A DNA stretch of 64,000 nt from Halichondria panicea (GCF_963675165.1 NC_087393.1:3601502-3665501), one strand, 5' to 3'. Positions 2,418 through 38,442 are shown, numbered from the stretch's first letter. The notes: generated by a model not told the origin, from the sequence alone. A program made the numbers and translations.

Positions 2418-2552
2418 GTCCACTTTTAGACGCGTATCTAGTAGCTACACAGAGTCATTTTTCATTCTCAGAGAACCATTGAGACTGTAAGAAGAAGCTT
2501 CAACTTTTGAAACTATTGATCTATAGACTAATTAACTGCTACTTTAAACAGA

Positions 2553-15838: not shown

Positions 15839-16003
15839 TTTGATATTATTATTATTTCCTACTGAATTATGCAATGATCGTCATGAGTGATGGAAAGAGA
15901 ATAAGAATCTAGGAGTTTTTAAAGAAATGGCCCGCGAGACTAGATCCACAGAAGGTGGGAGGGGCTCATAGTCATATAAAGGTGGAACTTGGGAGTGTAA
16001 AAG
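15839..16003. promoter_or_regulatory. Divergent promoter region between the GH3 and Pkr1-like genes
   Basis: Only 165 bp separate the two start codons, which point away from each other. A TATA-like CATATAAAGG is seen about 30 bp before the plus-strand start. Shared control is inferred from position only. Confidence 0.5.
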
Positions 16004-16522
16004 ATGGACACTGACCCACAGAAGACAAAGTCTGCTACAGCACAAGAGAATGAGCAGTCCAATGTTAGAATTCAGCATCCAGAATCAAGGGGGGTCTTTG
16101 CTGACATCGTCCTAAATACGATGGAGCCAGGGACCAATCAAACTGTATTGATTTTCCTCAATTTAGTGTTTCTTTTACTACTGGCTACGTTGGCTGGTGT
16201 GTCCGTCTTCACTGGTATCAACATCCACGTCATTGTACTGGGCATCATCACTATTGGTCTTTGTGTAGGATTTAATCTGTAAGTACGAGGTGCCTGCTTT
16301 GAGAGCACAGCACATGTGATTTACGCTCAAATATACGAGGCCACCCTCTGTACTACGTGTAGGCCTATATAAGGCCACCATGACGTTACCAAGCTTAACA
16401 CGTGTACAGAAGTTTGTGTTGGTATACTAGCTTATGTTCATGTACTGCAATATTAATTGCCCAGGTTCATCTCGCAGCTGCCCAGTGAAGTGGAGCAAGA
16501 TGATACGAGAAAAAAGGACTGA
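16004..16522 (+). CDS. Pkr1-like small ER membrane protein (V-ATPase assembly factor family), 2 exons
   Basis: Exons 16004-16278 and 16465-16522 join (CT|G) to 110 residues. The N-terminal ~35 residues are polar and disordered. Then FADIVLNTMEPGTNQTV leads into two hydrophobic helices separated by TGINIHVI, and a charged C-terminal tail (SEVEQDDTRKKD). The order 'F..x..EPGT...helix...(G/N)NIH...helix...acidic tail' matches the Pkr1 family; yeast Pkr1 works in the ER in assembly of the V-ATPase membrane sector. The similarity is short, so the assignment rests on motif order and length. Confidence 0.62.
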
Positions 16523-17289: not shown

Positions 17290-18237
17290 TTATTGCTCGG
17301 TTGTCATGCGTTCACCGGTTTCTTCAATTGGACCGGGTACGGTTTCTTTTGGAACCATCGGTGGTGCTGGTGGTGGTGCTGCAACAGCTGGTTGTTGTGG
17401 TTGCTGAATTGCAGGCTGATTGCCAACGTTGACTAGCAAGGCGGCAAGGGCCGGATCAATACCATCTGCAAACTTTATGGTTGCAGTACTCCCAGATGAC
17501 GTTGCCAATTGTAACGTAGCTTTTGTTCTGCCGGCAAATTCCTTCTCCATTTCAAGCCGTTCGTTGTCAGCATGCTGTTGAAAGGCAGCAGAACGTTTCT
17601 TTAGTTGCAAATCAAGATCCTGACTTTCTTTTTCATATTTGAGTGATTGTTCTCTTTCTTGCTTTTCAAACCCAATTTTCAGTTCAGCCATTGCATTCCT
17701 CTCCTGTAACTCAGCCTTCTTGATTTTTTCCTCCGCTTGAACTCGCACCCTTTCTTCTCTGATTTGCAATGTATTCATTTCTTCTTCCAATTTACGTTTA
17801 ATTTCATTGCCTTTCTTTTCGTCTAGCTGTTTTGCTTTTTCGTATTCTGCCTTGTTCATTTCCATTTGAACTTGAAGTTGTGCCAACTGATTCGACTTTT
17901 TTGCTTCAATGTCTTGCTGAGCCTTTTCCCTCTCAAGTTTGGCCTCACGCTCTTTCAGCTCCAGTTCCGCTTCTCGTTTCTGCTTATCTAATTCTGCTTT
18001 GAGCTTTTCCTTTTCGTGTTCGTTAACACCTCTCATTTTGTTAATTTCCAGCTCATCTTTGGCAAGCTTATTCGTCACACAGCTGTATTGGTTTATAATC
18101 ACAGCATGGCACATAATTATATTTGCATCACATTGCTAAAAAGCGTACCTTTGACACCAACCGGAAAAGTCTGGTGTATCAGAAACCTGCACAGCTTCCC
18201 TGCCACATTCCTTACACTTTGACTCTCCTTCTCCCAT
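17290..18237 (-). CDS. Gene A1: zinc-knuckle + coiled-coil protein with C-terminal module, 2 exons
   Basis: Exons (minus) 18237-18149 and 18082-17290, with a 66-nt intron, give 293 residues. No known family recognised. The N-terminus holds CKEC (C8, C11) and WCQSC (C28, C31), a likely zinc ribbon; the intron splits the Ser codon (AG|C) just before the last Cys. Residues ~35-200 are a long Lys/Glu/Arg coiled coil. Then comes the C-terminal module TKATLQLATSSGSTATIKF...DPALAALLVN, and a Gln/Pro-rich tail (QQPQQPAVAAPPPAPP). It is a clear paralogue of A2 (both have KREAELELKERE and DPALAAL/NPALAAL). It is divergent from B1, with 210 bp between starts. Predicted cytosolic scaffold or assembly protein; function unknown. 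Confidence 0.85.
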
Positions 18238-18447
18238 ATTGTTACACCGCAGAAAGAAACAATCCGAACTGAAGAAGCAAAAAGTGAAGCAAATGGTTCT
18301 TGCAATTACCAGTTTGCAAAAAAATTCTGTTTTATAGAAAACCTGATAATTATATGCATGCATGCACGTGTGGGTGCATGGAAGCTGAGTTGTATAAAAG
18401 ACATTGCACATGATGTTGCAGCAATTTTGATTTTTTAAGACTGAATC
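18238..18447. promoter_or_regulatory. Bidirectional promoter of A1 and B1 with a TATA box on each strand
   Basis: TATAAAAG at 18393-18400 lies 48 bp before the B1 start codon, and TATAAAA on the minus strand (18336-18330) lies about 93 bp before the A1 start codon. Two core promoters back to back within 210 bp are therefore plausible. TATA use is inferred from sequence alone. Confidence 0.5.
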
Positions 18448-19367
18448 ATGGCAAAAAGGCTGTACAATAAGTTCATAGGAGGCGGATCGGGAGGTGCTAC
18501 AGAAGTCTGCCTATTTTGTTTAAGAGAGATTAAAACTACTGAAGACAAAGAAAGAGGCAATCTCCATGAGAGGTAACTGTCTTCCTTGTTAATATGACAG
18601 AACAATAATTATTACCTTTCCATAGGTGTGCTGTGCTGGATAGTAAGCGTGCCCAAGTACTGAACTACACTTCTGAAGAGCAGGATGAAATTCGAAATCT
18701 CCGTCCCTCTGAGTGGACAAGGATCATGAAAGAGATCAGCATAAAAGAGATGGAGCAGATACAATACGAGCATTCCAAAGAAGAAAAGAAAATACGGGGA
18801 GACCTTGAATTCCGTGAAAGCATAATTGAGAAGAAAAAAGAAGAGTTAAAACACCTTCATGAAGATAGACTCGAGGAAATTGAAGCTGGAGCAGAGAAAA
18901 GAATAGAAGACCTGAAGGACAGCACTCGAAAAAAACAGCAGGATCATGCAGTTGAAATGAAAAAGTATGAAGAAGCTCACAAGCTTAAAATACGAAGAAA
19001 GAAAAAGGAGCTGTTGGACCTAAATAAGAAATCAGGTGAAATCAAAGACAAATACAAGGAAGCGTTTGAAAAACAAGAAGACTTCATTCAAAAAAGAGAA
19101 CAAGAGCTAGACTCTGACTTCAGCAAGAAATGGGATGAACAACAAGTAAAGCTTGAGAAAAATGCTCTGGATCTCGAAGCCGAGCTCGAGCAGAAGCAGC
19201 TACAGTTTGAAAAGGAGATGGAAGAAAAACGTATTGCTTTCGACAAGCAGCTTGACAGCCAAATGACAGCCGAGATAAAAATGACTAAAGAAGACGGCAC
19301 TACATTGGAAATGCGTGAAAAGGGACCAGGGATAGTGACAGACTTTATCAATACTATGATGAATTAG
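18448..19367 (+). CDS. Gene B1: CxxC/HxxC zinc-knuckle coiled-coil protein with C-terminal module, 2 exons
   Basis: Exons 18448-18572 and 18626-19367 (53-nt intron) give 288 residues. Unknown family. Exon 1 has C21-LF-C24 and the junction forms H40-ER-C43, a possible CxxC...HxxC zinc knuckle; the intron splits the Arg codon (AG|G) just before the last Cys, the same place and phase as in A1, A2 and B2. Then NYTSEEQDEIRNLRPSEW and a long charged coiled coil (about residues 65-245) ending in KEMEEKRIAFDKQLDSQ. The C-terminal module MTAEIKMTKEDGTTLEMREK followed by GPGIVTDFIN ends the protein. It matches B2 throughout (DGTTLEMREKGPGIVT versus DGTVLEMREKAPGIVT). Function unknown. Confidence 0.87.
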
Positions 19368-20589
19368 AATACTATAATTATACTAGAAAAAACTTGATAA
19401 ACACCTCACAACCGTAAATGTTGTTCCTCATTTGTGAATGTATATCCTCTCGAACTTCAGTTACCCCACCCCCATCTAAATGGCATAATAAAAAATATAT
19501 ATAACTCTCTTGCCTACACAGCCAAAAAGAAGCTAGACACTTGTTGGCAAGAGCAGGATATTTTTATGGGTGGGGCTCACTATAAACACCAGGAAAGCTG
19601 GGAAAGGGTGGGGGGCTCACTGCTTGGACATTGGAGTACAGTGCAGTTTTGGCTGCAATAGCGAGGTGGCTGTATTTCAGAAAATACCTGCGGTCCTGCC
19701 TTGAAACAAAACATTACGCTCTCTACACCCAACACGACATATATACCCGGGTGTAATAAAAATGTGCCAGAACTGACAGTACGAAATAGTGAGGTGGTTG
19801 CAATTCAGGGCGAGTTTTGTACGGTATGATCTTCTAGTAATAATAATGTGCCAGAGTCTATATACTGTAGTTGGCATATACATGCAAAGCCTAGTTATTC
19901 CTAAGTGTCAGTAATTATTTGACACTGTGCAATTCAAGTGGGTAGTGCATGTACAGTGTTGATCGTACAGTGCATGTTTATATACAATGTAGTGCATGTC
20001 AGTAGTATAATGAGAGGTTAATTAGCCAGTTTCAGTATCATCTAACAGCAAAGTCTATAACTATTTGTGAGCTTAGTTTGGCCATGCACTGGTGCACTGT
20101 GCAATGCGTATATAGATAACTCAAGGTTGGGGTTAATAGCTATAGGGGAGTTATAAGGATAGGGGTTGGTAGATTATGCTCGAGATATTACTTTATTATG
20201 CTATCCTTTTATGCTCAAGTTATATTAACAGCCTAATAAATTGCCTACAAATCGCCTATTATTCCTCTAAAGAACACAATAGGCCCCCTTATCTTTGCAC
20301 AAGTAACAAATATTGGTCACATGACTCTATCATTAACAGGAGATAATTAACACGACTTGCATTCCCAAAACTTGCCTATTATCTCTCATAATTGTTTTGA
20401 AGGTGCCTATTATGTCAGCATAATTCTCACCAAAAATGTGACTATTAACTACCATGCAGCATAATCTACCAACCCCTATACACATATAGGGCCCATGCAT
20501 GCTATACGATAAGTTATACTGCAGATGTACACCAAAATAGTGTTCGCTGCATGCATGGGTTGTGGTTGCATGGGTATAAATTATACACT

Positions 20590-21510
20590 CTTATTTGTGT
20601 ACTAGGCAACAACATGTACTAGTATAAATTGAATTCGTGATTTCCCTGGGATTATCCCTTTATATAGGGTAGTATCTGATGGAATGAGCCCACAACTTTC
20701 AGTAATGCACATGGGAGTGAATAACATGCACCGCAGATAACAAATCTGACCAATTCACATGCATGCATGGCTTTACTACCAAAGCTTATCAACCGCTGAG
20801 GCCATTGGCCCTTATAATGTTCAGTGTGTATAATTATGTATAGTGAATAACATACACTGCTGATAAACAAACTTGACCAATTTACATGCATGCATGGCTT
20901 TACTTATCACCACTGCAGGCACAGCAGCTGTCCATATTATACCGTGCATGCCATGCAGTATTAGCTACGCAATAAACACAACAGCTGAAATCCCTCCAGC
21001 CAAGGGCCGCAAGCAAAATCTTGGATGGGCATAACCAATATGTAGTACAACCAGCAAAACGGCTCATATAATTATACCAGACTTGGCAATATGGCTTTGC
21101 AATGCTTCTCCGTATACATGCACGGCAGTCATAATCTCCAAATACCCGGATATATAGGGCTACCTCCCTTCTCCTAAAAAACATTGCATACCTCAGCCAA
21201 AGGTTACATGCATGACATAATTATTATCAGTTATTGTTACGCCATACGGTACTAGATCTATACGGAAACTGAAACTGGAATCATACAATAACACTAGTGG
21301 ATAGTGAGTGCATGCATGTATGGTGTGTAAGCGGGTGAATGTCACACGCTAAAAAACAGCTGACAGGGAATTCGTTACTTTGAGCAATGTCTGTATTATT
21401 ATAGTTACAGGCTCTCATGACTGCATGCAAATGGATGACTGAAGATAATATCTCACGCATGCGTGCAGTACTGTAGCAACTGAAATTGATACGTTATATA
21501 ATATAGTTTA
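20590..21510. repeat. Segmental duplication, copy 1
   Basis: Long ordered similarity to 22090-23790: ACATGTACTAGTATAAATTG, TTTCCCTGGGATTATCCC, CCCTTATAATGTTCAGTGTG, GGCACAGCAGCTGTCCATA, AATATGTAGTACAACCAGC, CTCCGTATACA and GGTGAATGTCAC all recur in the same order and orientation. Confidence 0.75.
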
Positions 21511-22089
21511 CTATGATCCATAGCATAACCCTTTACTGGTCAAATTGTTGTAAATTTTACAACAACAATCTGGGAGGGAGCGTGTTATCAACTTGTGAAT
21601 GTTGCATGATATTGAATTCTGTGGCAGATTGGATAGTATCATGAATGCGATTATCCTTTGAAGTTCTGCTGAGCTGTTCAATTAGGACACATGACTGGTT
21701 GTTGGCCAAATGCCATATTATTGTAGAAAACCGTTACCCTAACCCTATATATAGGCTATAATACAAAGGGCCTGGGAATCAAAACATCTGTCTCCTTAAA
21801 CCTCTGATCGACATACATGCACCGCAGTTAGAAACAAACTATAGCCTCAAACCAGGCCGCTTTAAGTTGTACTCTCTTGCATGATCAACCATGATTGTTG
21901 CTAAAAAGAATAGATACCAAAACTCCAAAGTCTGGCTGCTGTATATAAACAGAGCTAGCCTCGATTCCAGGCCGCTGAGGCCTTGTGAAGGAGGCTAAAA
22001 CAGAGCCTGCAGAGCTTTGCAGCTTTTTTCTCTTTTCTCCTCTTATGCAGCTATATATATATATAGCGTTTTAGTGCAGAGTAAGTATA

Positions 22090-23790
22090 TATAGGCAACA
22101 ACATGTACTAGTATGAATTGAATTCTGATTTCCCTGGGATTGTCCCTTTATAGTATCTCTGAGCCCACAACTTTCAGTAACTCAGGTAGGTTAAGGCAGC
22201 TTTTCAGCAAAACAGCATTAAATTGAAGATAAAGTGTACTGTATACAACTCAGATTTATTGTATAATAATATTATCTTGACAATAGTACCTTTTTTCACC
22301 CAAAATGTATTGTGGACATAAATACAATGCAGCCTCCAATACTACAAAGCAATATTACTACCAAAAGAAAGCTATTGGTGATATCTAATAGAAAAATGGT
22401 TAGTATTTGGTATGAGGTCATTCTAGCTCAGATTACAGTAACTTGAATTGATAAAAATGCTGAAAAATGGAGAAAATTAATAATTCATATGCATACTGTA
22501 CAAAATACATGAAAGCATCCCTAAATACTAGCATAGTTCCTACTGTACTATAGTAAGAGCTTTCTTTTGATACTAAGACATAGGCGTAGGAACCAGGGGG
22601 GCAAGGGGGGCAGTTGCCCCCCTCAGCCAAATATTTTGCTTTTTCGCCCCCCTTAGCCAGCACTGCTCTCTAATAGATATTTTGGAGAATTTTAAATTGT
22701 GTCTCAGTGATATTGGTATAACATATTGTTTGCCCCCCTTAGGTAAAACATCTTCCTACCCCTATGTAAGATGGGGTCATGAAATTGTGTATTGGAGGCT
22801 GCATTCTGAAAAGAGTTGTTTAAAATAAATGGTCACAGGTAACACACACACAACATGCCAGTAACCATGGCAATGATGTTATCATACTGATCCTTTCTAC
22901 GTATAAGATATAATTCAAGAGCAAAAACATGCATTGATGATGCCATTTCACAATGACAAGGCACTTCATTAATTATACTATTTATGGCACTGATCTTAAT
23001 AATTATGCCTTAACCTACCTGCATGAGAATACATGCATGGGAGTGAATAACGTGCACCCAATATAATTATGCATTCAATATGCATGTATGGCTTTACTAC
23101 CAAGGCTTATCAACCGCTGAGGTCATTCATCTGAAGTTGTCCATAAACCATGCAGCCCTACTATATATATAAGCGGCTGGTTGGGATTGGCCCTTATAAT
23201 GTTCAGTGTATAATTATAATTATAGTGAATACCATACATGCACTGCTGATAACAATTTACATGCATGCATGGCTTTACTCAAGGCTTATCAACCACTGCA
23301 GGCACAGCAGCTGTCCATACTATACCATGCATCAGGAGTGCCGATGAAACCTAATATGTAGTACAACCAGCAAAACGGCTCATACCAGACTTGGCGACAT
23401 GGCTGCATGCTTCTCCGTATACACAGCAGTCATAATCTCCAAATATCCGGAGAGGACCATCTCCCTTCTCCTATAGCTCTACCAAAAAAACGTTGCATAC
23501 CTCATGCCAAAGGTTGCATGACATAATTACTGTCAGAGTATTATTATTACGCCATGGATACTACGGTACTATAAGCAAGTACTGAAACTGGAAAATTAAT
23601 CATAAATAATATAGTGGATAGTGTGCATGCATGCATGCATGATGTGTAAGCGGGTGAATGTCACGCACTAAAAAACAGCTGACAGGGAATTTGTCACTTT
23701 GAGAAATGTCTATAGTCACAGGCTCTCATGACTGCGTTGCAAATGGATGGTTGAAGATATACCTCACACATGCCGTACTGTAGCAACTGA
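22090..23790. repeat. Segmental duplication, copy 2, expanded by insertions
   Basis: Matches 20590-21510 at both ends, but carries about 0.8 kb of extra sequence (about 22190-23030), including the CCCCCC/GGGGGG foldback element at 22580-22768. No coding capacity. Confidence 0.7.
22580..22768. mobile_element. GGCGTAGGAACC foldback element with poly-G/poly-C arms
   Basis: Starts TAGGCGTAGGAACCAGGGGG, has a GGGGGGCAGTTGCCCCCC inner palindrome and ends CCCCCCTTAG...CCTACCCCTATG, inverted relative to the start. A short non-autonomous element by structure. Confidence 0.6.
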
Positions 23791-23864
23791 AATTGATACC
23801 TTAGGGGTATCAGTATAGTATAATTATAGTAAAGCCACAGTAAGTTGGTTGTATCTGCATGTGG

Positions 23865-24045
23865 TGTATGCATACGTTATTCACTCTGCATGCACATACC
23901 GGTTTCACATATTCTCATATAGGGTCAAATCCCAGGGGAACTTCATGCATGCATGTTATTCACTCTGCATGCACATACTGAAAGCTGTGGTTCGCATATT
24001 CTTATCTTATAGGGTCAAATCCCAGGGGAACTTCATGAATGCATA
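23865..24045. repeat. Two tandem ~90-bp units
   Basis: CGTTATTCACTCTGCATGCA ... AGGGTCAAATCCCAGGGGAA CTTCATG occurs twice in succession with small differences. Confidence 0.75.
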
Positions 24046-24689
24046 ATTATAATAGCAGTGTTAATTGCAAGCTGCGCTGTGTTAATGCCTCTCGCCATGT
24101 TATGCTTTTGTTCAAAAAGTATTGGAGTGATAGAGTAGAGGGAATAAGTTTTTTCTATGAAGTTCGAATTTATACCCTTCATATACATATCTATAACTGA
24201 GAAGACTAGTGCTCAAGCTGGCGCTGTGCTAATTCCTCTCACCATGTTTTTGCTTTCGCTAAAAAGTATTAGAGTGTTATATTAGTTTCTATAATATTAA
24301 AGTTAGCTTATCTATATAAAGTCACTGAGAAGAAAAGACTTATTTACATGCATCTATTGTTGTTATTATTTATTGTATTATGTGGCTTACCAGGACCTCA
24401 AGAAAGAAGAAAATTGATTCTTCCAAGATCTGTAGTTCAGTGTATATAATATCTAAGAAGAAAAGATCTGTGTACATGCATATTGTTATCTATATTGTTA
24501 TATGCCATGGTAGTGTTTTGTGGCTTACCAGGCCCTCAAGACAAAGATGATTCTGCCAGGAGGATCTGGATCTGGATCTTGGATATTATTTTCTCACACA
24601 TGGGGAATAAGCGCGCATGCGCATTACATCCATAGGAATAATTAAAGGGTGTGTCCAAAGAGATCAATTTCACAAATGGCTACCGTACC

Positions 24690-27070
24690 GAGGGTCCGCA
24701 ACGGGCCAAAATTCTGTACGAGATTCTGGAATCTTAAGATTCCAAGGAGATTCCGATGAGATTCTGAGATTCCATTCAGGATTCCAAGATTCCTGAGATT
24801 CCATTAAGATTTCAAGATTCCATTCAAGATTCCAAGATTTCTAAAGATGATTCCTATAACTCTTTCCTTGGCAATCTGTTGTAGAAATTACAACAATGGG
24901 TAAGGAATCGTTATGATGAATTAGATGAAGTTGTATGTGAGCTCCTCCCTGACAAACAAACTGTAGTCTAGGTAACCGCCTTATCAGTCAAGTAGGCTAA
25001 AAATCTGTGTCCTTTGATGTAAGCTTTGATGTCTCTTTGTGCATATGTAGTTATAAAAAATAAAAAATAAAAAAAAGAAACCTTTGACTAGCTAGGAAGA
25101 GTAGCAGCAGTAGTAGTAGCAGTGCAAGCAGGACTAGACTAGATTAAAAAGTTGGTGGAAAGAATAACTGACCGTTTGGACGTCACCTGGCTGCCAGACT
25201 TTCATCTGGACTCTTCCCCCTGAGTAGCTGGCCTTTCTCTAAGCCACAAAACTGAGCAAGAAGCTGAAGAAGCAGCTAGACAGAGACATGTACCTAGCCT
25301 TGAGAATTGGGAGGCGTGGCTCAACTAGTTAGCCCAGCCCAGAGGAATTGTTACCGTGGGTACTGAACAACCGTAGAAGTAGGGCTACCCCTGGCTTTAC
25401 TGAATTAACTAGCTGTGTCTGCTGTCTAGTTGGACCAGATTTAGCTAGATAATGGGGTAGAGAATAGTTGAGCGGTGCTGTGTGTAGCTTGAACTGTACT
25501 GGCTGGCAAGAATCTAGTAAGCACCCTATGCACTGATAACTCGTCAGAATGGAGGGTATGTTCTAGGGATCTGGACAGCTGTACATCCAAAGGAGCCAGG
25601 GAGTGCCAATCATCTTCTCCCAGTCTCTGACACGCTAAACAAAAGGAGCTAGAACTGGGAGTCCCAGCTAGAATTGCTAGCCGGATCTAGACTAATAGAA
25701 TGACATGGAGGCGTGGTGAGGCCGGATCCACACTAATTGATCGACCTAAAGACGCTCCTGTTCCAGATTTCACGAATGGCAAGGAAAGGGTTATGACTTT
25801 TGGCTAGTCCTGGGCGTGGCCTTTCTGAAGATTGTGGGCCACGCCCTGATCTAGTCGATCTCGCCGCCCCCCTTCTTCCGGGCAACGATAGAGGGCGGCG
25901 GCGATCGACTAGCCCTGATCCATTATAATTAACCCGAGGCGCGTGGGCGGACACGGGTTATAGTAGTCATTATATCTGAATTGATGAACATAAAATAATT
26001 TTATAAAGACTAGACTATACGTCTTGTTGGCTATAAAGTCATTGATTCTAACTACTTTATCGCTTTATTGACACTTGGTTGCAATACCATTTTTTTTGGC
26101 GGCGTTGATGCATCTACCAATCTTCACATCCGTCACAGCCTACCTTGGCCATCATCTGCACATCGACAGTAGCAATAGACAGGGATTTTCAAAGTGCTCT
26201 CTTTGTCCATCCTGTGATACATAATATTTTTTCATGTATACACTGGTATACTGCAGGTCAGACTCACCGGCACCATAAGCTCCCTACCAATAGGGGAGCC
26301 TTGTCCCTCGCTTCGTCCATCCTGTGATGCATATACAAACTTTCATGACAACAATTATTTCGCTGATACTGCATACCACCATAAGCTCACTCTCATTAAG
26401 AGTGGACAGTTTGGACTTGAAGCCTTGTCCCTCGCTTCGTCCGCCCTGTGATGCACAGACCTATATATAATTATGCAACTTTCAACTATAAATTATTACG
26501 CTGGTACTGCATCAGACTCACTCACCATAAGGTCACTCTCGGCATTAAGAGTGGGCAGTTTGGAGCTGATTTTGGGAGAGCTTTGTCCATCACTTTGCTG
26601 TTCAGCATGCATGTACGTATACACATTTTTTCATGACTATAACAATTATTATTATTATGCTGGTTAAACTCACCTTAATCTCTTTAGGAAACGTCTATAA
26701 TCTGCACACAGAGCTGCATGCTATGAGGATAGAGAGAGAGAGATGTGTACTCTAGTTTTAATTAATTAAATAGCAGCTGAGCCTGCAACCGCAATTGCAA
26801 TCGATAATCGGCCTGGTCTCGAGGCTACTGCAACCTCAATAATAATCTACGGCAAAGTATACGGTTTATTTATATACATTTACGGGTATCTCATTAACAT
26901 TCCACAAGATTCCAGAGATTCCAAGAGATTTCAGAGATTCCAAGGGATTCCAAAGATTTCACAAGATTCCAGAGATTCCACAAGATTTCAAGATTCCAAG
27001 TGAGATTTCAAGATTTCAGTTGAGATTCCAAAAATTTTGTACGAGATTCCTGGCCGTTGCGGACCCCTCG
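24690..27070. mobile_element. Candidate 2.4-kb element bounded by GGGTCCGCAACGG ends and GATTCC arrays
   Basis: The left end has GGGTCCGCAACGGGCCA and the right end TGGCCGTTGCGGACCC, inverted copies. Each is flanked on the inner side by an array of GAGATTCCA-type units (24710-24845 and 26905-27050). Both arrays run in the same orientation, so they are not simply part of the inverted ends. Between them lie a 3' tail like that of a retroelement (AAAAATAAAAAATAAAAAA near 25060) and repeated 'CCTTGTCCCTCGCTTCGTCC' sequences (26300-26600). No transposase ORF. Confidence 0.5.
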
Positions 27071-27124
27071 ATGGCTACTGCTAGCTAGCTGTTTTAACAG
27101 ATATTTTCTGAGTATTGTAGCTAA

Positions 27125-27340
27125 CAAAAAGCTAGCGCTTTAGTGCAAGGCTAACTCATATGTTTAATAGAAAGTTTGTGCGGACAGATGATGCTATGAA
27201 AGATTCTGAAGAGACTGCAACAGCCTTCAATGTGAGTCAAACTAGCCATAACTCGAGAAAGAAGCTTTAGTTTGCTAATCCACGAATCAACATCCAAGAG
27301 AACGTAGCTAGAAGCCTATAGAAGCTGTTAGCTTTCGTCG
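27125..27340. repeat. Dispersed ~215-bp repeat, copy 1
   Basis: AGCGCTTTAGTGCAAGGCTA, GAAGAGACTGCAACAGC and GTGAGTCAAACTAGCCATAA match the block at 29653-29875 in the same order. Confidence 0.75.
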
Positions 27341-27611
27341 CATTGCAACCGTTGAGCAGTTACAGCTTGAACAGATACACAGAACACAGTCGTATCCCTC
27401 GTGCGGCTACGCCTCGAGGCATAAAAAGACTTGTGTACATGCATCTATTGCATAATTATGGTAGTGTTTTGTGGCTTACCAGGACTCACCTCGAGAAAGA
27501 TTCTGCCAAGGAACTGGGGTTCATAATTATGTCTTTTACTCTTTGACATTAAAAGAATTAATTGCAGCATGCAACTTAACATTGTCTAGGAAACCATCGA
27601 CCATCGATATA

Positions 27612-27927
27612 GTTATACCAAAAGTCCAAAGTCTAAAATTAATGGCTGCTGGATCAGCAGAGCCTTAATTGCAGCTCTTTTCTTACTCTTGCAGCAACCG
27701 ATAGCTAGCGTTCTGCAGAGCTTACTTAACTACTAAGTAGAGTAGCAACACTCCATGGAAAAGTTTTGTATGCACTCTTCTTTAAAAGGCTGCAATGGCA
27801 TTCCAAGTAGGCAAAACTCGAGAACCAAGTAATATTTTGCAAAATCCATAAATTAAAAATATGACTAGCCTATAGAAACTCTTACTTGCACTTTATTGAT
27901 CTTGAGTAGCTGTATAGCAGTTTGCAT

Positions 27928-27975
<48 letters not shown>
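27612..27975. repeat. Dispersed repeat ending in a (CA)n microsatellite
   Basis: The block from CCAAAAGTCCAAAGTCTAAA to the (GCAC)n/(CA)n run at 27930-27972 is found inverted at 45510-45845, including the microsatellite on the far side ((GT)n at 45510). The (CA)n therefore appears to be part of the mobile unit. Confidence 0.7.
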
Positions 27976-27976
<1 letters not shown>

Positions 27977-28830
27977 TATACCTCGGCTTGTGCATGCGCA
28001 CCAATTAAGGCATACAAATGAGTGGTGCAAGCTGCGCTGTGCTAATGCCTCTCATCATGTTTTGCTTCGCTCAGGTATTAGAGTGTTGCAGAGCCTCCAA
28101 GTAGAGACTTTTCTCTTCAGTATTAATCAGCTCATTTTTCCGTATTTAATGATGATTTTCAGTACAAAACATAGAAATGAGATGAAATGCTGTTTTAAAT
28201 TAGTGGCTTTGTAATTACCCGCCCCTTCAATAAAGGGGCGTGGCAAGCGAGACTTGGCTTTACAAGATAAAATTTATAGCTGTCTTTCAGTATCAGACTC
28301 AGGGCATAGAGCTACTACAGCTGTAGGGATGCTACTAGATCATTCACTGTCAACTATAAGGCCAGTTAACTTATTCTGTAAGCTGACAAAAGGTCACTTC
28401 TAGTCTTCTAGATCTACATGTATATCCGTATTTTTGCAGTTAATTCCGTATAACCGTATTAGAAGACAGAAATCCGTATAAATACGGAAAAAACCGTATA
28501 CTTGGAGGCTCGCTGGTGTTGTAATTAGATGAGGTATAATGTGTAAGCATGTAGATCTACAATGTAGAAATATTATTTAAAAAAGGGGTGGATCTGCAAT
28601 AGGTCAGAGTTCACAAGGGCTGCTGGCAATGATTATGTACTAGATGGGCGTGCCCGTCCCCAGCTATAAAAGGGGGGATGGGTTCATGCCTATCAAGTAT
28701 TCGTTCTAATTAATGCAGAAAGTCATGCAGCACGAATTAGATTGCGAAGTGCTTACGTAATGTATTTCAGCATCAATCAGATTGTAATGCATTTGTTGGC
28801 TTCTCAGCCTCTCTCCTTCTCTGCAGCATA

Positions 28831-29347
28831 GATAAAGTAGAGAGAGGGATTGGCAACGGAAGTGGTACACGTCATGCTTAGTCTACGTGGCCTTAAGCCA
28901 TCCCAAGCATTCTATCCGTGTTTCGCTCTGAAACTCCTGCGAAAACCCGGGAAACTTAGTGTATCCAATGCATGCTTCTCAAAGACCCCTCCAACACTTA
29001 ACCTAGTGCCCCCTGATGGTGAGTATCATTTGGAAGAGAAGAAAATGATTGTCGTGAAGTAGCTAGAGGTACACAGAATACTTGTGTGCCTATAGTAGCT
29101 ATGACATAGCTAAGGCTGTGTAAGTAAGTAGTGTTCTCTGTCCCAAATGGCCATAAGTATGAGGTTAAGTTGATGATTAGCAGCAGAACTGTTTGTGGAC
29201 TTTTTACAGACAGAAAAAATGATTTTCATGAATTATTCATGATTAAATTTCCACGTTAGAAGTAAGCCTCGATCAAAACCGTGGGGAAACACGGATTGAA
29301 ACTCGAGGTCACTTCCGTTGCCTATTCCTCTCTCTACTTTATCTATG
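28831..29347. mobile_element. GAGAGGGATTGG-family TIR element
   Basis: AGATAAAGTAGAGAGAGGGA TTGGCAACGGAAGTG at the left is inverted at the right end (CACTTCCGTTGCC ... CTCTCTCTACTTTATCTATG). Related in sequence and length to the element at 5531-6020. Confidence 0.75.
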
Positions 29348-29616
29348 TCTGCAACAAGCTGAGCTCCGCAGCTACAGTTGCAGACAAAATTAATGTTAGT
29401 ACGTAATGCAGAGAATAAATGCTTGATATATAGGCTTGAAATCCGTCCCCCCATTTTATAGCTAGGGACGGGCACGTCTATGTCTGCAACAAGCTGAGCT
29501 CCGCGGCTACAGTTGCAGACAAAATTAACGTTAGTACGCAATGCAGAGAATAAATGCTTGATATATTATAGGCTTGAAACCCATCCCCCATTTTATAGCT
29601 AGGGACGGGCACGCCC
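29341..29616. repeat. Tandem duplication, two ~137-bp units
   Basis: The unit from TCTATGTCTGCAACAAGCTG to AGCTAGGGACGGGCACG is present twice in a row with few changes. A 102-codon frame here on the minus strand is only this repeat read twice. Confidence 0.85.
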
Positions 29617-29652
29617 GTCTAGCAGTGTACATGCATGCATACAGCTTTGCAG

Positions 29653-29875
29653 TTAACAAACAGCTAGCGCTTTAGTGCAAGGCTAACTCATAAGTTGAAG
29701 TTGAATAGAAAGTTTAGATGATGCTATGAAGATGATTCTGAAGAGACTGCAACAGCATTCACTGTGAGTCAAACTAGCCATAATTCGAGAAAAAAGCTTT
29801 ATTTTTGCAAATCCACAAATCGAAAATCAAGAGAACGTGGTTAGAAGCCTGTATAGAAGCTGTTAGTTTTCGTCC
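29653..29875. repeat. Dispersed ~215-bp repeat, copy 2
   Basis: Second copy of the block at 27125-27340, same orientation. Confidence 0.75.
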
Positions 29876-30374
29876 TACCAGATAAAGTCGATAAAATCGA
29901 GTTGATAAAACACATTGAGTCGATTTCAGTTTGGGACACTAACATAATTATGGTATTTTGTAATCGCCATTTTGAAACAAAAGGCTCACCATAACTACTC
30001 ACTTATTTTGGTATTCTACTCTCTAGACTGGATGCACTCTCTTTTGGCGGCTACGCCTTGAGGCATGCCTTAAAGTAACATATTTTTCACAGGTAGATTT
30101 GTCTGCGATTTCACTGTTTTTAGCTCATGCATTTTGCTGGTATTAAATTCTGCTAAATTCTGCTCAAGTTACGAAATTAATGTTCTTCGTATAATTCTAA
30201 TTACTCGCAAGTGGTTTTATTGCATTTTCCAATTGTCTGCAAGTATAATAAACATTTTTGCGATTTTACTCTCATTCGCAAAGAGCAGAAATTAATACCC
30301 GCGAAAATATTACCTTAAGATAATAAAAATACCCAGTATAAATTGCTGAGTCTGAACATATGCTCTTTCAGCAT

Positions 30375-30694
30375 AGTCTCGCGAGCCACGCCCCTTCACA
30401 TGAAGAAGGATCTGGAAACAGTGTGCATGTGGAGTTGTCCCAGTGGAATTTAATTACGTATTCACTCTGCCATGCCCACTCAAAACTGTCAAAAGTGGGC
30501 GTGGAAGATTAGTTTTTCGGCTAATTCATTATGTCATGTGGGTGTGGTTTTATGATACAAGTGGGTTGATGACCTTTTACAAATCCTATGATCTGATAGG
30601 CAACGTCAATTTAGGATCCTGGCGTAGGGGACAACTCCACATGCACAATGTTTCCAGACCCTTCTTCGTGTGAAGGGGCGTGGCTTGCGAGACT
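30375..30694. mobile_element. MITE with ~65-bp near-perfect terminal inverted repeats
   Basis: Left arm GTCTCGCGAGCCACGCCCCT through TCTGGAAACA to GTGGAGTTGTCC; the right arm reads GGACAACTCCAC ... TGTTTCCAGA ... AGGGGCGTGGCTTGCGAGAC. Total about 320 bp, apparently recent given the arm identity. No coding capacity. Confidence 0.85.
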
Positions 30695-31961
30695 ACCTTC
30701 AGTGGTCGATAATCCCTGGTTTATAGAACTACACAAGCAACAAAATTTTAGGATAATACGAGTATGACACTGCATGAGCCATTCGATATACGCTTCGTAT
30801 ATTAATTTGTATCTCTTTTACCCCAATTAATCCAACATAATTATTACTCAATGTACGTTGTTGCCATCCGGAAGTGGTGCCCCACCCCATACCACCAGCC
30901 TTCTTGTTAAAACTCTATAATTATTATACGACACTAAAAGTTGTGTGCTTTTTATTTCAGGTCATCCTTTGCCAGAATGCAGAATGGTAAATTAGGAGGA
31001 ACCGTATAATTATTATAATAACTGACAGGACATATTATTTTATGTACCTCTTAGGCTTACCTAACTGGAGAGTGCATGCACTATCACATTGACAGAAGTG
31101 AATAGTATTCCGGTGAACCTCTTTGTGCACCTGTTCTTCTCTTCGGTTCTTGGAGCTCTTCGGCTCTCTGGAGTTGCTCCTTGTCATGCATAATGCAATA
31201 AAAAAGCTTATAGATTTAGCTATCTCTATCTATTTACAAATCTGTAAGTGCAAATCTGTAAGTGCAAAAAATTAGTATAATTTTGCTGTGAATCTGACGA
31301 TTTTTTTAATGAAAATTTCGGTCCATGGACTGAAAAATATGCCCCCCGCCCTGAAAATTTCGGTCCGCTAATCTTGTGGTTGCACTAGTAGCAATAGAGC
31401 TATGCATACAGTAGTTATATATAGGGTCTGATAAATTATGTTCAATTATTTTATAGAACAGGGTAAATATCTTTTAAAAGTCCTTTAATATAGTGTATAC
31501 AATTATGTATCCCTAGTTTAATAATGATACCTCCATGCAGATTTAATCAATCTACATGCATGCATGTATGTATATAGGTCTATTAAAGCTGCAACTCACC
31601 CACACTACAGTCTGGTTGTCCTTCAGCACTATTTTATATCAAATATCAAGGTACATGTACTCTTCTCTGGCAGCACTTTCTCTTCAAGCCCCACCCTATA
31701 AGCTGTATAATCTGCATAATTATAAATTTTGAAGTGCACTTGGACCCTTTCCTCATTTAAGCACAGACCAGACAAATATTTGGTGCTAATAAATTATACT
31801 CTATACAGCAACGTAAAGTTAATTATCTGACCACAAGAAGTGGTGTCAGTGGGGTTGGGCAACGGGTATACTGATGGCAACTACTATAGACAACACAACA
31901 CCTCTGCACAACCTAGAGTTTGTATGAAATTTACATTATCTACAAAAGACTTCACGGAGAT

Positions 31962-34900
31962 TTAATTGGGTACACTTTGACCAGAAGGTTTTTCATTCCG
32001 TCCTTGTACAGGTTCTTCCGTCCAACTAGGTGCTTGAATTGATTCTTGCTTTCCCGTACCAGCCATTCTATCGAATATCAGAGCAGCAAGTGCTGGATTA
32101 AGGTCATTTGTGATGGAGAGTTTAGCAGTTTCTCCTGATGGCTTGTTCATCACAAATGTAGCAGATGCCCTCTCACTGAATTTTGCTTCAATCTCAACTC
32201 TTCGTCTCTCCATCTCTTGGTCATGCTCTTGTGATTTTTTATCCATCTCCATTTTTAGTGTGTGGATCTCTTCGGCATGCTTCAGAGCTTGTTTTTTTTC
32301 GTGCTTTTCATGCTCGGCTCTCATTTCAGCAAGTCTCTTTATTTCTTCAAGCTCAACATCTTTGAGTTTTTTCTCACATTCCAATCGCACCCTCTCCTCA
32401 TCAACTTTGAGTTTATTCATCTCAGCATCCAAGAGCCGTTTTATTTCTAGGTGTTTCTCCTTGTCTTCTTGCAAAGCTTTTTCATGGTCTGCTTTCAATT
32501 TCTCCTTTTTGACTTCGAGAAGCGCCATCTGTTCGGCTTTTTTAGCAGCAATTTCATTCTCGCGTCTTTCCTTCTCTAATCTTACTTCTCGTTCTTTTAA
32601 TTCTAATTCAGCTTCTCTTTTTCGCTTTTCTAAATCAGCCAGAAGTTGTGCACGCTCCACTTCATTTTTCTCTTTGTTTCTCTGTATCTCTGCTCTATCT
32701 CTTTCAATCTTGAGCTCAACACAACTGCAAATAGAATGAATTTTTGATGCAGGGGCGTAATTATTTGACTTTCGTCAATTCAGATCATGCTGTTATTGTA
32801 CCTTATAAGTATTAGTACTAGGTACTAATTTTAGCCAGCGCTATTACGCTATTAAATAACTAATGAAAAGGTACTGTTGAGAGTATGCTATAATCTCTGA
32901 CTCTCAAACTTTACATTCAACCTTCTCATACTTATACATCTTTTGACAAATATTGTGCTTATGAATTTGCTGCAAATCCGCCAAAATTATACTATACCGT
33001 ATAGAGGGTAATTTTCGTGGGGTAAAAAATTCGTTTATTTGGAAAACGGTGGTTTTCGTGAGTAAAAATTTCGTTTAGTCTCGTTGCCTGCACTGCATTC
33101 ATACATTCCAGTAAGCCACGCCTATGTTAAAATTTCGTGGAGGTCAGCTTGCCCACAAAAATAATGAATTTTTACCCCAAGAAAATTACCCGCTATACGG
33201 TAGTACCCTAAAAATAGAGAAAAATCTGTAAAATTACTATCGTCTATAATCATGGGCTAAGGAGGTCCGACACAACCTTGATTAGGCTGAAATTGAGATA
33301 ATTAGCCACAAGCAATAACTTTACTGTATACGTAACCAAGAATCAAGCTTAATCAAGGTACTCGTGTCGTACCTCTTCTGACCCCAAATGTTGTAAGACA
33401 GGAAGTGCTACAAGTAGCCTCATGAATATATTAATGAGAACAGGTTTTCTTTGTGTCTGGCTAAGTTATAAAAAGACACTTTAAACTTTAAATTAAGAAT
33501 TTGGTAGCATAAAGTTATGTAAAATGATTGTGGAAACTTTGAGTTTTTGAGCAAGCTGTTCACTATCAACGTAGCAAGCTACAATTAAATTGGTTGAATA
33601 ATTATTAACAAGGATCTATAAATATTCAAGGTAAATCCCATAAAATGGTGTTTGCAGCAGTTACACAAACTTTAACATTAATTACACAATTTTGTAGAAC
33701 ACATCATGAATGACTTTAAGCCTTTCAGCTTGCTGCAAAGCATGCACATGCATCAGATGCACTAGTTGACACTTGAGGGGTACACACATAGTAGGTTTGA
33801 GTTGAGGCTATATACGTTACCTCAATTCCAATTCCCTAAGACAATTCAACTGAGGCTCCGTCAATTCAACTGAGGCTACAGCATTTCAACTGAGGCTACA
33901 GCAATTCAACTGAGGCTACAGCAATTCAACTGAGGCTACGGCAATTCTAATTCGCTACGGAGATTCAACTGTGGCTCTACGGCAATTTGCTACGTTAATT
34001 CAACTGAGGCTACGTCACTATGTCAGTTCGCTTTGCAGTTGGAGAGTACGTACATGGCAGTTCAATTCATATGACTCTTAAAATTCCAGCTCAAATTACT
34101 GGAAATAATTTTGTCAATCTGTATATCACGTACACAATGTAGGCCTACTGAGCTGATTGTCAATGTATAGAACTGTATAAAACTGTTTAACATCATCGAT
34201 CAGTTCTCTCCTTTAATTAACCAGCCTATACGTGTCACAGTACTTGTTAAACAGTTTAGCTAGCTCTATAGACTATACAATTGACCTCAATTCTTGCCAA
34301 TCAGTTCCACAGTCGTTGGCATAATTATTCTATAATTTATGCATGTAACTGTGTGATTGACAAATAATGTAAGATGAGCATGCACCATATGAATTGACAT
34401 AGCACTGACTTATTAGAAGTCTAGTTGAACTGCAAAACAAATTGCCTCAAACCCCTCGAACTATTGAATTGCGTAGCAATTTCTGTAGCCTCAGTTGAAT
34501 CACCCCAGCCTCGAGCCTACTATGTGTGTACCTCAGGGCCACCGTAGCAATCACTGGAAAAATACCAACCACAAAGACTATTCAGTGACTTTTTGCTCAA
34601 TCTCAGAGGTCGAGGAGGATTGTCAGGGTCAAAAGGTCTTAATCATAAAGCTGCTTCGGGAGGACTTTAATTGAATTCCACTCAACTAGCTCCACGTTAA
34701 TTGGAGATACTAAAGGAAGAGTAGATGAGTGGTATTCAACTAAAGTCAAGCTTTTTAACCATGACAATCCTCTTCTGTCTCAAACTTGCTGAGTCAACAC
34801 ATTCCATATTGAACTAATTCATCTCCTAGTAACAAGTTCTAGTTCAGTAATTGGTATGTGTTATGAGGTTTGGAAATCCAGAAAAAATTACCGGTAGAGT

Positions 34901-35239
34901 TTTTGTAGTGTCATCATTGTTATGAAACAATTAAAATACTTGTAAAGTGAATGTAAAAGTCTCAGTGTTTGAAGGCATGCAGGCTAAGTGGCATGGGCTT
35001 AGAGAGAGTCCTAACACACAGTCGGCACAAGTAAAAATATAAGAGAGTCCCCGGCCAACTAAGTCGAGGCTTAGCCAGGTAGATCTAATTACAAAACTGC
35101 ATTTATATCTATCTACAACACTAATAAAAATGTATCTTTACCTTTTACACATGTCCTTGAAGGTGTTTCCAACTGGCGACATTTGCCCACATTTAATGCA
35201 GGTTTTCAGCGATGGTCCTTTCGATTTGCCTCCTCCCAT
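31962..35239 (-). CDS. Gene A2: zinc-knuckle + coiled-coil protein with C-terminal module, 2 exons
   Basis: Exons (minus) 35239-35142 and 32724-31962, separated by a 2.4-kb intron, give 286 residues. Paralogue of A1. The N-terminus has CIKC (C14, C17) and CKSC (C31, C34); the phase-2 intron splits the Ser codon (AG|T) before the last Cys exactly as in A1. A long coiled coil follows (KREAELELKEREVRLEKERR; LDAEMNKLKVDEERVRLEC), then the C-terminal module SATFVMNKPSGETAKLSITN with NPALAALIFDRM, and a short polar tail. Its intron has been expanded by a MITE (32994-33204) and a minisatellite-bearing element (33780-34533), whereas the A1 intron is 66 nt. Divergent from B2. Function unknown; a structural or scaffold role is only inferred. 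Confidence 0.85.
32994..33204. mobile_element. ACCGTATAG MITE in the A2 intron
   Basis: ACCGTATAGAGGGTAATTTT CGTGGGGTAAAAA at the left is inverted at the right end (TTTTTACCCCAAGAAAATTA CCCGCTATACGGT). About 210 bp. Belongs to the GTATAGCGGGTA-ended group also seen at 10165, 11694 and 58253. Confidence 0.8.
33780..34533. mobile_element. TIR element containing a 20-bp minisatellite
   Basis: Ends TACACACATAGTAGG...TTGAGG and CCTCGAGCCTACTATGTGTG TA are inverted copies. Inside, 33840-34020 holds about eight imperfect units of CAATTCAACTGAGGCTACAG. Lies within the A2 intron. Confidence 0.65.
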
Positions 35240-35566
35240 TCTGAGAATAATATATCTTAGGGTTGGTTCTCAGGCAGAAATGCAAGATCTATATAGCTAT
35301 AGTTGAGTACTGACTGCAGGTTTTGTGCTGACAGATTTTTATACAGACATGCAAACAACATGAGATGACAATGCTATAGATAACAATGACAATGAGATGA
35401 CAATGCTATAGAGTGAAAATGCATGTATCATTGTGCTGAGAGGTTTTAACAGGGAAATTCCCAGGGAATCATTAGATGTAAACATTACTTGCTCAGTCAT
35501 CATATGGATGATGCAGCACATAAATTGCATAGAATAAGGGTCCATTATTGCAATTGATCTATAATA
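35240..35566. promoter_or_regulatory. Bidirectional promoter region of A2 and B2
   Basis: The two start codons are 327 bp apart and point outward, as in A1/B1. The region contains a tandem GATGACAATGCTATAGA duplication (35361-35413). A TTTTTATACAGAC motif lies at 35336. No longer shared block with the A1/B1 promoter could be seen by eye. Confidence 0.45.
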
Positions 35567-36552
35567 ATGGCTGGTTACTTTTTCAAGAGGAGCCTGTTTC
35601 GTCGTAAGGAAGAAGATCATGAAAAAGATCAAGAACAAGTCAGAGATAAGTTGGTTCAGTGCCAGTTCTGCAATGGATACACCAACACTGCTACTGGGTA
35701 CAACAGGGAAGAAATTTTAAGCGTTGCTGGTGGCTACCTGCATACAAGGTATATCAATACTATATTATATAGGTCTGGCCAAATCTACTTATAATATCAT
35801 GCAGGTGTGTTGAGCTGCAAGCCAAACGTGGAAATGTTCTGGACTATACTCCTGAGGAACTAGAGGAGATTGAAAGGCTTACACACGAAGAGTATGCGAA
35901 AATTATCCAAGAAAGAAGCGATAAAGAAATTGAGATTTTAAGAGGGCAAGTAGCTGAAGAGGAAAGAAAATTGCAGCATCGAATGGAAGACCATGAACAA
36001 AATATTCGAAAGCAGCGAGACGAGTTGTACAAGCAGCACGATGCAATAATCCATACAATTGAAGCTCAAACTACAAAAAAGAAAGGATTGCTGGAGCAAG
36101 ATGCTGGGAAGAAACAACAAAAACATGAACAACTGCTAAAGAAAAGTGAAGATGCTCATCAGACTGCCATACAAAAAATGAAGGAAGAATTTTCAGATCT
36201 TGAGAGAGAAACAGAGAATGTGGCTCATGACTACATGCGAAAGTTTGAAGAGCATGATGAAGGAGTTCAACAAAGAAAAACTGAGCAAGACCAAGCTTTC
36301 CAGGAGCAACAGATCAATCAGGCCCAGAAATTTAGTGAAGAAGCATTAGACTTTGAAGCTGAACTCAGACGAGAACAAGAAGAGTTTGAGAAGGAAATGG
36401 AAGAAGAGCGAATAGCCCTTGAGCAGCACTTTGATGACCAGTACCAAACAGAGCTTGTGCTCACAAAAGCTGATGGAACAGTTTTGGAAATGAGGGAGAA
36501 GGCTCCTGGCATAGTCACTAGGATAACTGAACAGTTATTAGGGGACTTGTGA
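35567..36552 (+). CDS. Gene B2: CxxC/HxxC zinc-knuckle coiled-coil protein with C-terminal module, 2 exons
   Basis: Exons 35567-35748 and 35805-36552 (56-nt intron) give 309 residues. Paralogue of B1. A basic N-terminus (KRSLFRRK) precedes C32-QF-C35 and H59-TR-C62; the intron splits the Arg codon (AG|G) just before C62. Then DYTPEELEEIERLTHEEYAK, matching NYTSEEQDEIRNL in B1, and a coiled coil of about 190 residues rich in Gln, Glu and Lys, ending EKEMEEERIALEQHFDDQ. The C-terminal module TELVLTKADGTVLEMREK with APGIVTRITEQLL is nearly the same as in B1. No membrane or signal sequence. Function unknown. Confidence 0.87.
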
Positions 36553-37215
36553 TTAGTTTTAGATTAGCTATATAGACTATCATTTTTCGTTACATACTAT
36601 ATAGTCTAACAGGGTATTGAAATAATAACAGTTGTCAAAATATGTATAAGTTGCAGTGTTCGCCCATGCATGCATGCACGCAGATTATCTAGTGAGAAAT
36701 CAAGCTGTCCGAAGTTTTATAGTCGTCATTTTATATGCTAGATAATTATTGCATGCTCTTTTGCCAGCAATTAAGGCAATTATCTATTTAAACGGGGAAA
36801 GGGGCAGGGCGGCTCGAAACAATTTCTTGAGTCATCGAGTTAGAAATTCATAATTACAGGTATTATCTATATATACGGATGTAAATACATCAGTACTGGA
36901 AAAGTGGGCCGGGCCGGGAGGCTATATATAGCCCCATTGTATACATTTTTGGGGACGGGCACGCCTAGTATACAGCACCATTGTGAACTTACCTGAATTA
37001 TTATTACGGTGAAAAGTGCATGCAAAGGGAATCTCCCTGCATGGTCATTGAGCACAGTGTCACTTCCGAATCAGCAAGTCATTCTCACATTCTGACGAAA
37101 ACTCCCCGGGACTTCCCCATCCAACATCATTGCAGGCTATGCTGAGTCACTATGGGCATGGGGTATATTATAGTAAAGCCCACTGCACAAATCATGCAGG
37201 ACTGATGAAGAATCA
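36553..37215. other. Intergenic, promoter of gene C
   Basis: AT-rich, no clear exon. A possible splice acceptor (CATGCAG at about 37194-37200) precedes the gene C start, and the frame is open back to it, so a short upstream exon of gene C may exist but was not identified. Confidence 0.45.
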
Positions 37216-38442
37216 ATGGATCCCCAACAAGTGAAGCCTGTGTTGAAGGATATCAAACTTTTGTTTGAGACAACAACTCCTAAGAAATCTGACACTTGCA
37301 GTGAAGCTGAAAGACCCAAAAGAGTAAAGAGAGATAATCCAGAGTGGCTAAAAGCTTCGAAAGTAGAGCCTCCCAACAATAAAGTTGATGACTTTCAGAA
37401 TTTAAAGAGGTCATCGTCTGTAAGCGTAAGCAAAAAATCATTCCAAATACCTTCAAATAGTAAGAGCTCCAACGGCACTGATATTGCACCTATAAAAGAA
37501 AGGCCAAAGAAAACTGTCCGAGACAATCCTGAATGGCTCAAAACGTCGAAAATTGAATCTCAAAGCAATAAAACTGAAGAGCTTCGGAGATCGTCATCAG
37601 TAAGTGTGCAATCAAGCAAAACATCTTTTGAGAAAGCGACAACCAAGAATCAATCTGACAATTTTATCCGTGAAAAGCCAAAGAAAACTGTTCTAGACAA
37701 TCCGGAGTGGCTGAAGTCATCACGAGTTGATTCTAGTGCTAATAAAATTGATCAGGTACGAGAAAGAGCATCATCTGTGAGCGTGAAAACGAGCAAGACT
37801 TCCTTTGAAGGAAAGGAAAGGAGTGAAAACTCTTTCAAAGCTTGGAAGCAAAAAAGGGATTCAGAAAAGTTAGCTGAAGATGCACACTTGTCTTCACTTT
37901 ATGGACATCTCTCTCCAGAGAAAAAGAAGCTCGAAATTGATTGCATGAAAATGAAAAGGAACATAGAAGCACAAATAAAAGTTGAGGCACAGTATAATGA
38001 GAAGGTAGTGGCAGTTCTTCAACTGGAGAAACCTGGAGCAGAAACTCGTACTGTCAAGTTCACAAACGTTGGTGCTGGTATTGCAGGGAATTTCACCTCA
38101 TTGTCATGCACCATATCTGAGCTGAAAACACCCGAGCAAATTAAAGCTGAACAAGGTCTACTAGCTGAAAGTATCTGCTGGGCTGAGCAAGAAGCACTAG
38201 AGCCCCCTCCGGAGGCGGAGAGGAACAAAAGTACTGGAGTGAAAGAAAATGGTGAAGTAGATTCTGAATCGATGAAGTTTACAGATGTTAAGGCCGGTAT
38301 TGCTGAGCAATTCACGGACAATTTAATGTTAAAGACACCAGAGCAAATGAAAGCTGAACGAATACAGAAATTGCGAGTGGAAAGTGGCCAAAATGTTGCC
38401 AAAGACGACTCTGTTGATCTAACACCAACAACAGAAATTTAA
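37216..38442 (+). CDS. Gene C: DNPEWLK-repeat protein sharing the A/B C-terminal module
   Basis: One long exon, 408 residues from the ATG at 37216; the frame is open upstream to a candidate phase-2 acceptor at 37200, so the true N-terminus may be longer. Not a family I know. Three imperfect repeats (about residues 34-77, 97-139, 154-198) each read K(R/K)xVxDNPEWLKxS(K/R)(V/I)(E/D), then a spacer and R(S/A)SSVSV...K(T/S)F, a Ser-rich basic pattern that could be phosphorylated. A short charged helix follows (200-260), then VVAVLQLEKPGAETRTVKFT with AGIAGNF (about 262-294), resembling the end modules of A1, A2, B1 and B2. Part of that module plus KTPEQIKAE is repeated at 352-381 (MKFTDVKAGIAEQFT, KTPEQMKAE). 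It sits 660 bp after B2 on the same strand. Function unknown. Confidence 0.8.
   Translation: MDPQQVKPVLKDIKLLFETTTPKKSDTCSEAERPKRVKRDNPEWLKASKVEPPNNKVDDFQNLKRSSSVSVSKKSFQIPSNSKSSNGTDIAPIKERPKKTVRDNPEWLKTSKIESQSNKTEELRRSSSVSVQSSKTSFEKATTKNQSDNFIREKPKKTVLDNPEWLKSSRVDSSANKIDQVRERASSVSVKTSKTSFEGKERSENSFKAWKQKRDSEKLAEDAHLSSLYGHLSPEKKKLEIDCMKMKRNIEAQIKVEAQYNEKVVAVLQLEKPGAETRTVKFTNVGAGIAGNFTSLSCTISELKTPEQIKAEQGLLAESICWAEQEALEPPPEAERNKSTGVKENGEVDSESMKFTDVKAGIAEQFTDNLMLKTPEQMKAERIQKLRVESGQNVAKDDSVDLTPTTEI

Follow-up and report, generated by a model that had tools for sequence, protein, structure and literature searches.

Two divergent gene pairs in the sponge Halichondria panicea encode an orphan family of proteins with a knuckle-like head and a long charged helix

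SPFH proteins (FLOT1/2, PHB1/2, Erlin1/2, HflK/C) form hetero-oligomers at membranes, in which two paralogous subunits alternate, contact the membrane at their N-termini and carry long helices with variable C-terminal caps, the flotillins being lipid-modified as well (PMC12624060). Among other long helices, 11-residue repeats such as those of NadA3 escape heptad predictors (PMC6191539), and natural single alpha-helix (SAH) domains are charged at about 80% of positions (PMC5812594). The present study concerns four genes, A1, B1, A2 and B2, found within 64,000 nt of the genome of the sponge Halichondria panicea (C17:3601502-3665501, in an assembly of 131 Mb and 39 contigs; this whole stretch is referred to as the window). 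We conclude that A and B are, beyond reasonable doubt, ancient paralogues, and that together they make up a single orphan family, "orphan" meaning outside the named libraries searched (Pfam, NCBIfam, PDB) and making no claim about other sponges.

Gene models derived from open frames and splice sites give four two-exon genes in the order A1(-)/B1(+), A2(-)/B2(+), so forming two head-to-head pairs with ATG-to-ATG distances of 210 bp (A1-B1) and 327 bp (A2-B2), exactly the layout described in an original prediction for this DNA. The encoded proteins have 293 (A1), 288 (B1), 286 (A2) and 309 (B2) amino acids. The features are as follows.

17290-18082, minus strand: A1 exon 2, encoding the helical rod, the C-terminal module and then a Pro/Gln-rich tail (open frame, GT-AG, 42% identity to A2)
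18149-18237, minus strand: A1 exon 1, with the MGEGESK start and the CxxC-x16-CxxC knuckle as far as the split codon preceding the last Cys (start and knuckle kept in A2; intron phase common to A2, B1 and B2)
18238-18447, no strand: spacer of 210 bp separating the ATG of A1 from that of B1, a putative bidirectional promoter (no significant k-mer sharing with the A2-B2 spacer)
18448-18572, plus strand: B1 exon 1, with the N-terminus and the CxxC...H part of the knuckle (in-frame stop just 5' of the ATG)
18626-19367, plus strand: B1 exon 2, with the last Cys, linker, hendecad-like rod and C-terminal module (alignment to B2; period analysis)
31962-32724, minus strand: A2 exon 2, with the rod and C-terminal module (AlphaFold helix 32-219, then a weak strand-strand-helix)
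35142-35239, minus strand: A2 exon 1, with the MGGGKSK start and the CxxC-x13-CxxC knuckle, followed by a 2.4-kb intron (fits the N-myristoylation pattern)
35240-35566, no strand: spacer of 327 bp separating the ATG of A2 from that of B2 (measured)
35567-35748, plus strand: B2 exon 1, with a basic/aromatic N-terminus and the CxxC...H part of the knuckle (gene model)
35805-36552, plus strand: B2 exon 2, with the last Cys, linker, hendecad-like rod (residues 88-277) and C-terminal module (alignment, AlphaFold, period analysis)

Each modelled coding region has exactly one GT-AG intron and an intact frame, and in all four genes the intron follows the second base of the codon that precedes the last knuckle Cys (AG/C, AG/T, AG/G and AG/G, the stroke marking the intron). 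The modelled starts are supported by the MGxGxSK motif common to A1 and A2, upstream of which there is no likeness between them, and by the in-frame stops close 5' of the ATG in B1 and B2. Using BLASTP, A1 and A2 are 42% identical over 254-268 amino acids (E ~1e-58) and B1 and B2 are 38% identical over 276 (E ~1e-50), a resemblance along their lengths that had been predicted. Codon comparison within the two pairs (A1/A2, B1/B2) places most differences at third positions, with proportions of synonymous differences (pS) of 0.78 and 0.74, which are saturated, and of non-synonymous differences (pN) of 0.36 and 0.40. As silent sites are saturated while pN is lower and the frames are still open, all four reading frames are maintained by purifying selection. 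There is no AATAAA or ATTAAA within 800 bp 3' of B2, and the one nearest to A1 is distant, as might be the case if the models were partly wrong or the genes not expressed; we consider this highly improbable in view of the intact frames, the canonical splicing at one shared position and the strong constraint on non-synonymous sites where synonymous ones are saturated, which indicate that A1, B1, A2 and B2 are probably real genes.

Because charged helices look alike by composition, so that simple scores mislead, the relationship between A and B was subjected to stronger tests. Composition shuffles show the rods to be significantly alike. In hhalign, the A and B profiles align with a score of 55.0 (probability 93%, E 2.5e-7), compared to 22.6 for reversed B; when B is shuffled 100 times in blocks of seven residues, the scores have a mean of 15.2 (standard deviation 2.3) and do not exceed 21.5. 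When the proteins are slid along each other without gaps, all four A-B pairings select one offset (B2 residue = A2 residue + 55), at which the pairings together score 0.53 per residue (z 5.2 over ~210 residues), the second-best offset scoring 0.10, the rods are 16-21% identical over these ~210 residues, and every rod segment plus the C-terminal segment scores above background. The hydrophobic positions of A coincide with those of B (r 0.36, a value reached by none of 167 circular shifts), hydrophobic residues of A occupying 57-62% of the columns that are hydrophobic in B1 and B2 alike vs 20-22% of the others. The unique gapless offset, the profile score and the common intron site and phase together argue for ancient paralogy, and the homology of A and B, as read from these comparisons, exceeds a shared coiled-coil composition.

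The order A- B+ A- B+ matches the product of a tandem duplication, from which we conclude that the A-B pair was duplicated as a unit. An ancestral two-exon gene would have been copied in inverted orientation to give a head-to-head A/B pair, which would later have been duplicated in tandem, both duplications being ancient. Both the unit duplication and the ancient paralogy had been proposed in the original prediction, and both are upheld.

Searches using the complete proteins, and separately their C-terminal modules and the linker of B, revealed no members in the 131-Mb genome beyond the four genes. In Pfam, the full proteins and the separate heads and tails gave only sub-threshold, mutually inconsistent matches, and NCBIfam gave no match for the A and B proteins. 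A PDB search by sequence (B2 query only) returned coil-like noise, including a non-significant match to apolipophorin III (E 0.8), and the best Foldseek matches of the A2 and B2 models in PDB had E values of 0.65 and 0.92, with low probability. No encoded relative was detected in GTDB genomes (B profile) or in IMG/VR contigs (both profiles), and a search of the literature on sponge-specific zinc/coiled-coil proteins found nothing relevant. Membership of the SPFH (flotillin-prohibitin) group was excluded, as there is no SPFH (Band 7) domain and the full proteins, compared to Pfam up to E 1, gave unrelated sub-threshold matches only. Thus, instead of four proteins scattered over different known families with a mutual similarity at random level, there is no family match and an A-B similarity above controls, and in Pfam, NCBIfam and PDB the expectation that no named family has this plan is supported.

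Two other genes of the window were compared with this family. The one at 37215-38442 (+), downstream of B2, is a single long open frame with three copies of the motif DNPEWLK[AST]S, is present as a single copy in the genome and has no Pfam match above cut-off. It was considered as a third carrier of the C-terminal module, since its stretch AVLQLEKPGAETRTVKFTN is the top non-family match to the A version among the 1,583 open reading frames of the window, but at 9.6 bits and E 0.07 this is suggestive and is not claimed. The other, at 2532-3464 (+), encodes a charged helical protein with the start MGRGSK (a possible myristoylation motif) and two internal repeats of ~75 residues; it is without a zinc knuckle, has no Pfam match above cut-off and shows no notable likeness to A or B.

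The heads carry the motifs CxxC-x16-CxxC (A1), CxxC-x13-CxxC (A2), CxxC-x15-HxxC (B1) and CxxC-x23-HxxC (B2). A1, B1 and B2 have no cysteine outside the knuckle, and A2 has a single one (Cys149). The motif, which is short and differs in spacing among the four proteins, looks like a zinc knuckle, with the last Cys at the start of the helix, and may bind zinc. The top Pfam match of the A2 head, through its CxxC...CxxC spacing, is to zinc ribbons of the Spt4/RpoE2 type (15.9 bits, below the cut-off of 25), but the match stops at position 36 of the 77 in the profile, and A1 and the B proteins lack this match. The PROSITE pattern for N-myristoylation is MG-{EDRKHPFYW}-x-x-[STAGCN]-{P}, and the start of A2, MGGGKSK, fits it when read by eye.

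From two-sequence alignments, single-chain AlphaFold predictions give one continuous helix in A2 (residues 32-219) and in B2 (residues 88-277), with a predicted local distance difference test (pLDDT) score >90 for most helix residues, corresponding to rods of 188 and 190 residues and ~28 nm; the A2 tail is modelled, at low confidence, as strand-strand-helix. B has a linker of ~27 residues between knuckle and rod, unlike A. As the A1 and A2 rods align gap-free, and the B1 and B2 rods likewise, rod length is apparently constrained. The rods had been described as long charged coiled coils, and they are indeed long charged helices, but not coiled coils in the usual sense, as the heptad period is absent from all four: the power at 3.5 over the whole rods is 0.1-1.5 (0.1-0.5 in B1 and B2), where the shuffle 95% level is ~6.3, and the a/d excess in a sliding test has z values of -0.7 to 2.7. 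A canonical heptad coiled coil is excluded for all four rods by this lack of a period near 3.5, which makes a heptad-based prediction of A:B pairing an unsuitable test.

B1 and B2 have a hydrophobic period of 3.64, with a power of 10.4 in B1 and 19.4 in B2 compared to a 95% level of ~6.2 in shuffles. The period appears in the averaged B profile as a peak at 3.64-3.68 once the windows reach residue 35 of the aligned stretch, and the projection on the resulting stripe gives z values of 4.2 and 6.2. By its period of 3.64-3.66 the B rod is hendecad-like, and A keeps the same hydrophobic positions more weakly. Repeats of 11 residues (hendecads) favour straight or right-handed packing. The spacing in B is shifted from 3.5 towards 11/3 as in the hendecad (or undecad) coiled coils of NadA3; however, NadA3 has isolated 11-residue insertions within a heptad trimer, whereas the B period spans most of the rod, and no sequence kinship between the two is known. 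A period so close to 11/3 would also suit amphipathic 11-residue-repeat helices lying on a lipid surface, like those of apolipoproteins or alpha-synuclein, and the N-termini, which look lipid- or membrane-directed, and the very weak, non-significant apolipophorin III match point the same way. The hydrophobic face is narrow (~60 degrees), though, with the remainder strongly charged and without a clear basic-interface pattern, and the B2 rod is acidic (net charge -20), so that we regard a lipid-surface role of the rods as decidedly unlikely.

The A rods are 49-56% charged, with base-to-acid i,i+4 pairs clearly above shuffles (z 3.9 and 4.2) and like-charge pairs depleted. In this they resemble SAH domains, which are long and highly charged and in which i,i+4 salt bridges are enriched, and together with the lack of a significant hydrophobic period in A this might indicate a monomeric charged spacer that does not oligomerise. 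Such a role is improbable in our view: the charged fraction is ~50% and not the ~80% of natural SAH domains (PMC5812594), A has residual hydrophobic positions shared with B, and coiled coils too show salt-bridge enrichment. Judged by its composition, the A rod has too many hydrophobic and too few charged residues to be a typical SAH domain.

Of the possible explanations we favour, tentatively, one in which A and B are subunits of a hetero-oligomeric, fixed-length, membrane-proximal helical scaffold of ~28 nm with the zinc-knuckle end near the membrane. Building on the homology, the shared register and the B stripe found here, and on the continuous helix predicted by AlphaFold, we infer the zinc, the membrane contact, the A:B packing and the scaffold role. 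Each protein would consist of a zinc-knuckle head, a single uninterrupted helix of ~188-190 residues and a small C-terminal module. A would pack in register beside B, the contact being the hendecad-like stripe, which is pronounced in B and fainter in A. The N-terminal heads would lie at the membrane, A2 by virtue of its myristoyl group and B2 through its basic/aromatic N-terminus, while partners would be bound ~28 nm away by the C-terminal modules. In its manner of working, the closest comparison for such a scaffold is with the SPFH hetero-oligomers, from which A and B differ in their short Cys/His head and in the lack of an SPFH domain. A more specific version, which we rate as very unlikely, would have A and B alternate in a cage or brush associated with the membrane, of a kind not yet described in animals and perhaps confined to sponges, with straight or right-handed ~28-nm hendecad helices on zinc-knuckle feet, an analogue of the flotillin or vault wall without an SPFH domain.

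Several observations weigh against the scaffold. The A rod has no significant hydrophobic period of its own, and its projection on the phase of B reaches just z 1.4-2.2. The start of A1, MGEGESK, breaks the N-myristoylation pattern by the Glu after Gly2. In the AlphaFold models, the head and C-terminal modules are of low confidence (pLDDT 32-56 for most residues), and taken alone, the N-terminal and C-terminal modules of A and B have no significant similarity in composition shuffles (Z ~0 to 2). The common plan that had been proposed therefore stands as to the Cys/His knuckle motif and the long charged helix, but not as to a heptad-type helix or modules with an A-B likeness of their own. Conservation, finally, rests on four sequences, with no relative outside this genome in the collections searched.

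The retained divergent layout had been taken to suggest co-expression, an argument that loses most of its force here. Tandem duplication keeps the layout without selection, which makes its retention weak evidence, and the argument is weakened further because the A1-B1 and A2-B2 spacers share no 8- to 12-mers above chance (Markov-shuffled control) and because head-to-head genes are very common in the compact genome of the sponge Amphimedon, where they account for 45% of genes and where 11,379 genes so arranged are no more than 1 kb apart (PMC4773876). Co-expression of A and B is possible, with a probability that the layout barely raises. The same facts would be expected if A and B were separate homo-oligomers (B:B via the strong stripe; A alone or A:A), mere divergent neighbours in a compact genome with no common complex, and a strong stripe in B vs a weak one in A is what different packing would produce. 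Against this, both A and B persist in two constrained copies whose rods are equally long and in the same register, and we consider separate homo-oligomers a serious but somewhat unlikely explanation. Formation of an A:B heteromer, as in the scaffold that we tentatively prefer, is possible.

The surroundings of the two pairs contain further features. An uninterrupted frame of 747 codons at 13053-15296 (-) encodes a family 3 glycoside hydrolase with the Fn3-like domain, an intron-poor enzyme of interest in an animal genome, and a small gene at 16001-16282 (+) encodes a Pkr1-family membrane protein of the endoplasmic reticulum (PF08636, E 2.5e-11). Between B1 and A2 lies a degenerate direct repeat (20804-21496 and 23186-23803, 79-81% identical), and other dispersed repeats of the window are found at 27115-27339/29647-29874 and 5529-6024/28827-29345. 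At 44974-45214 (-), a tandem repeat of ~81 bp (95.6% identical) encodes EPVDGSKDNAPGAKTTVDTAGD... within a 326-codon frame that has no Pfam match. The genome is marked as that of an animal by the Wnt family, which is represented by ten exon matches on three contigs, with none in 14 control genomes.

A and B constitute an orphan family of two genes whose history is clear, the formation of a divergent paralogue pair having been followed by its tandem duplication, and which encode a conserved gap-free helical rod of unusual 11-residue-type period; the four genes are short enough for expression. Should A and B not form a complex, they would urge caution, as a conserved head-to-head layout in compact genomes would then say little on shared function. 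If the two do form one complex, they would provide a convenient case of paralogous rod subunits becoming a heteromer in an early-branching animal.

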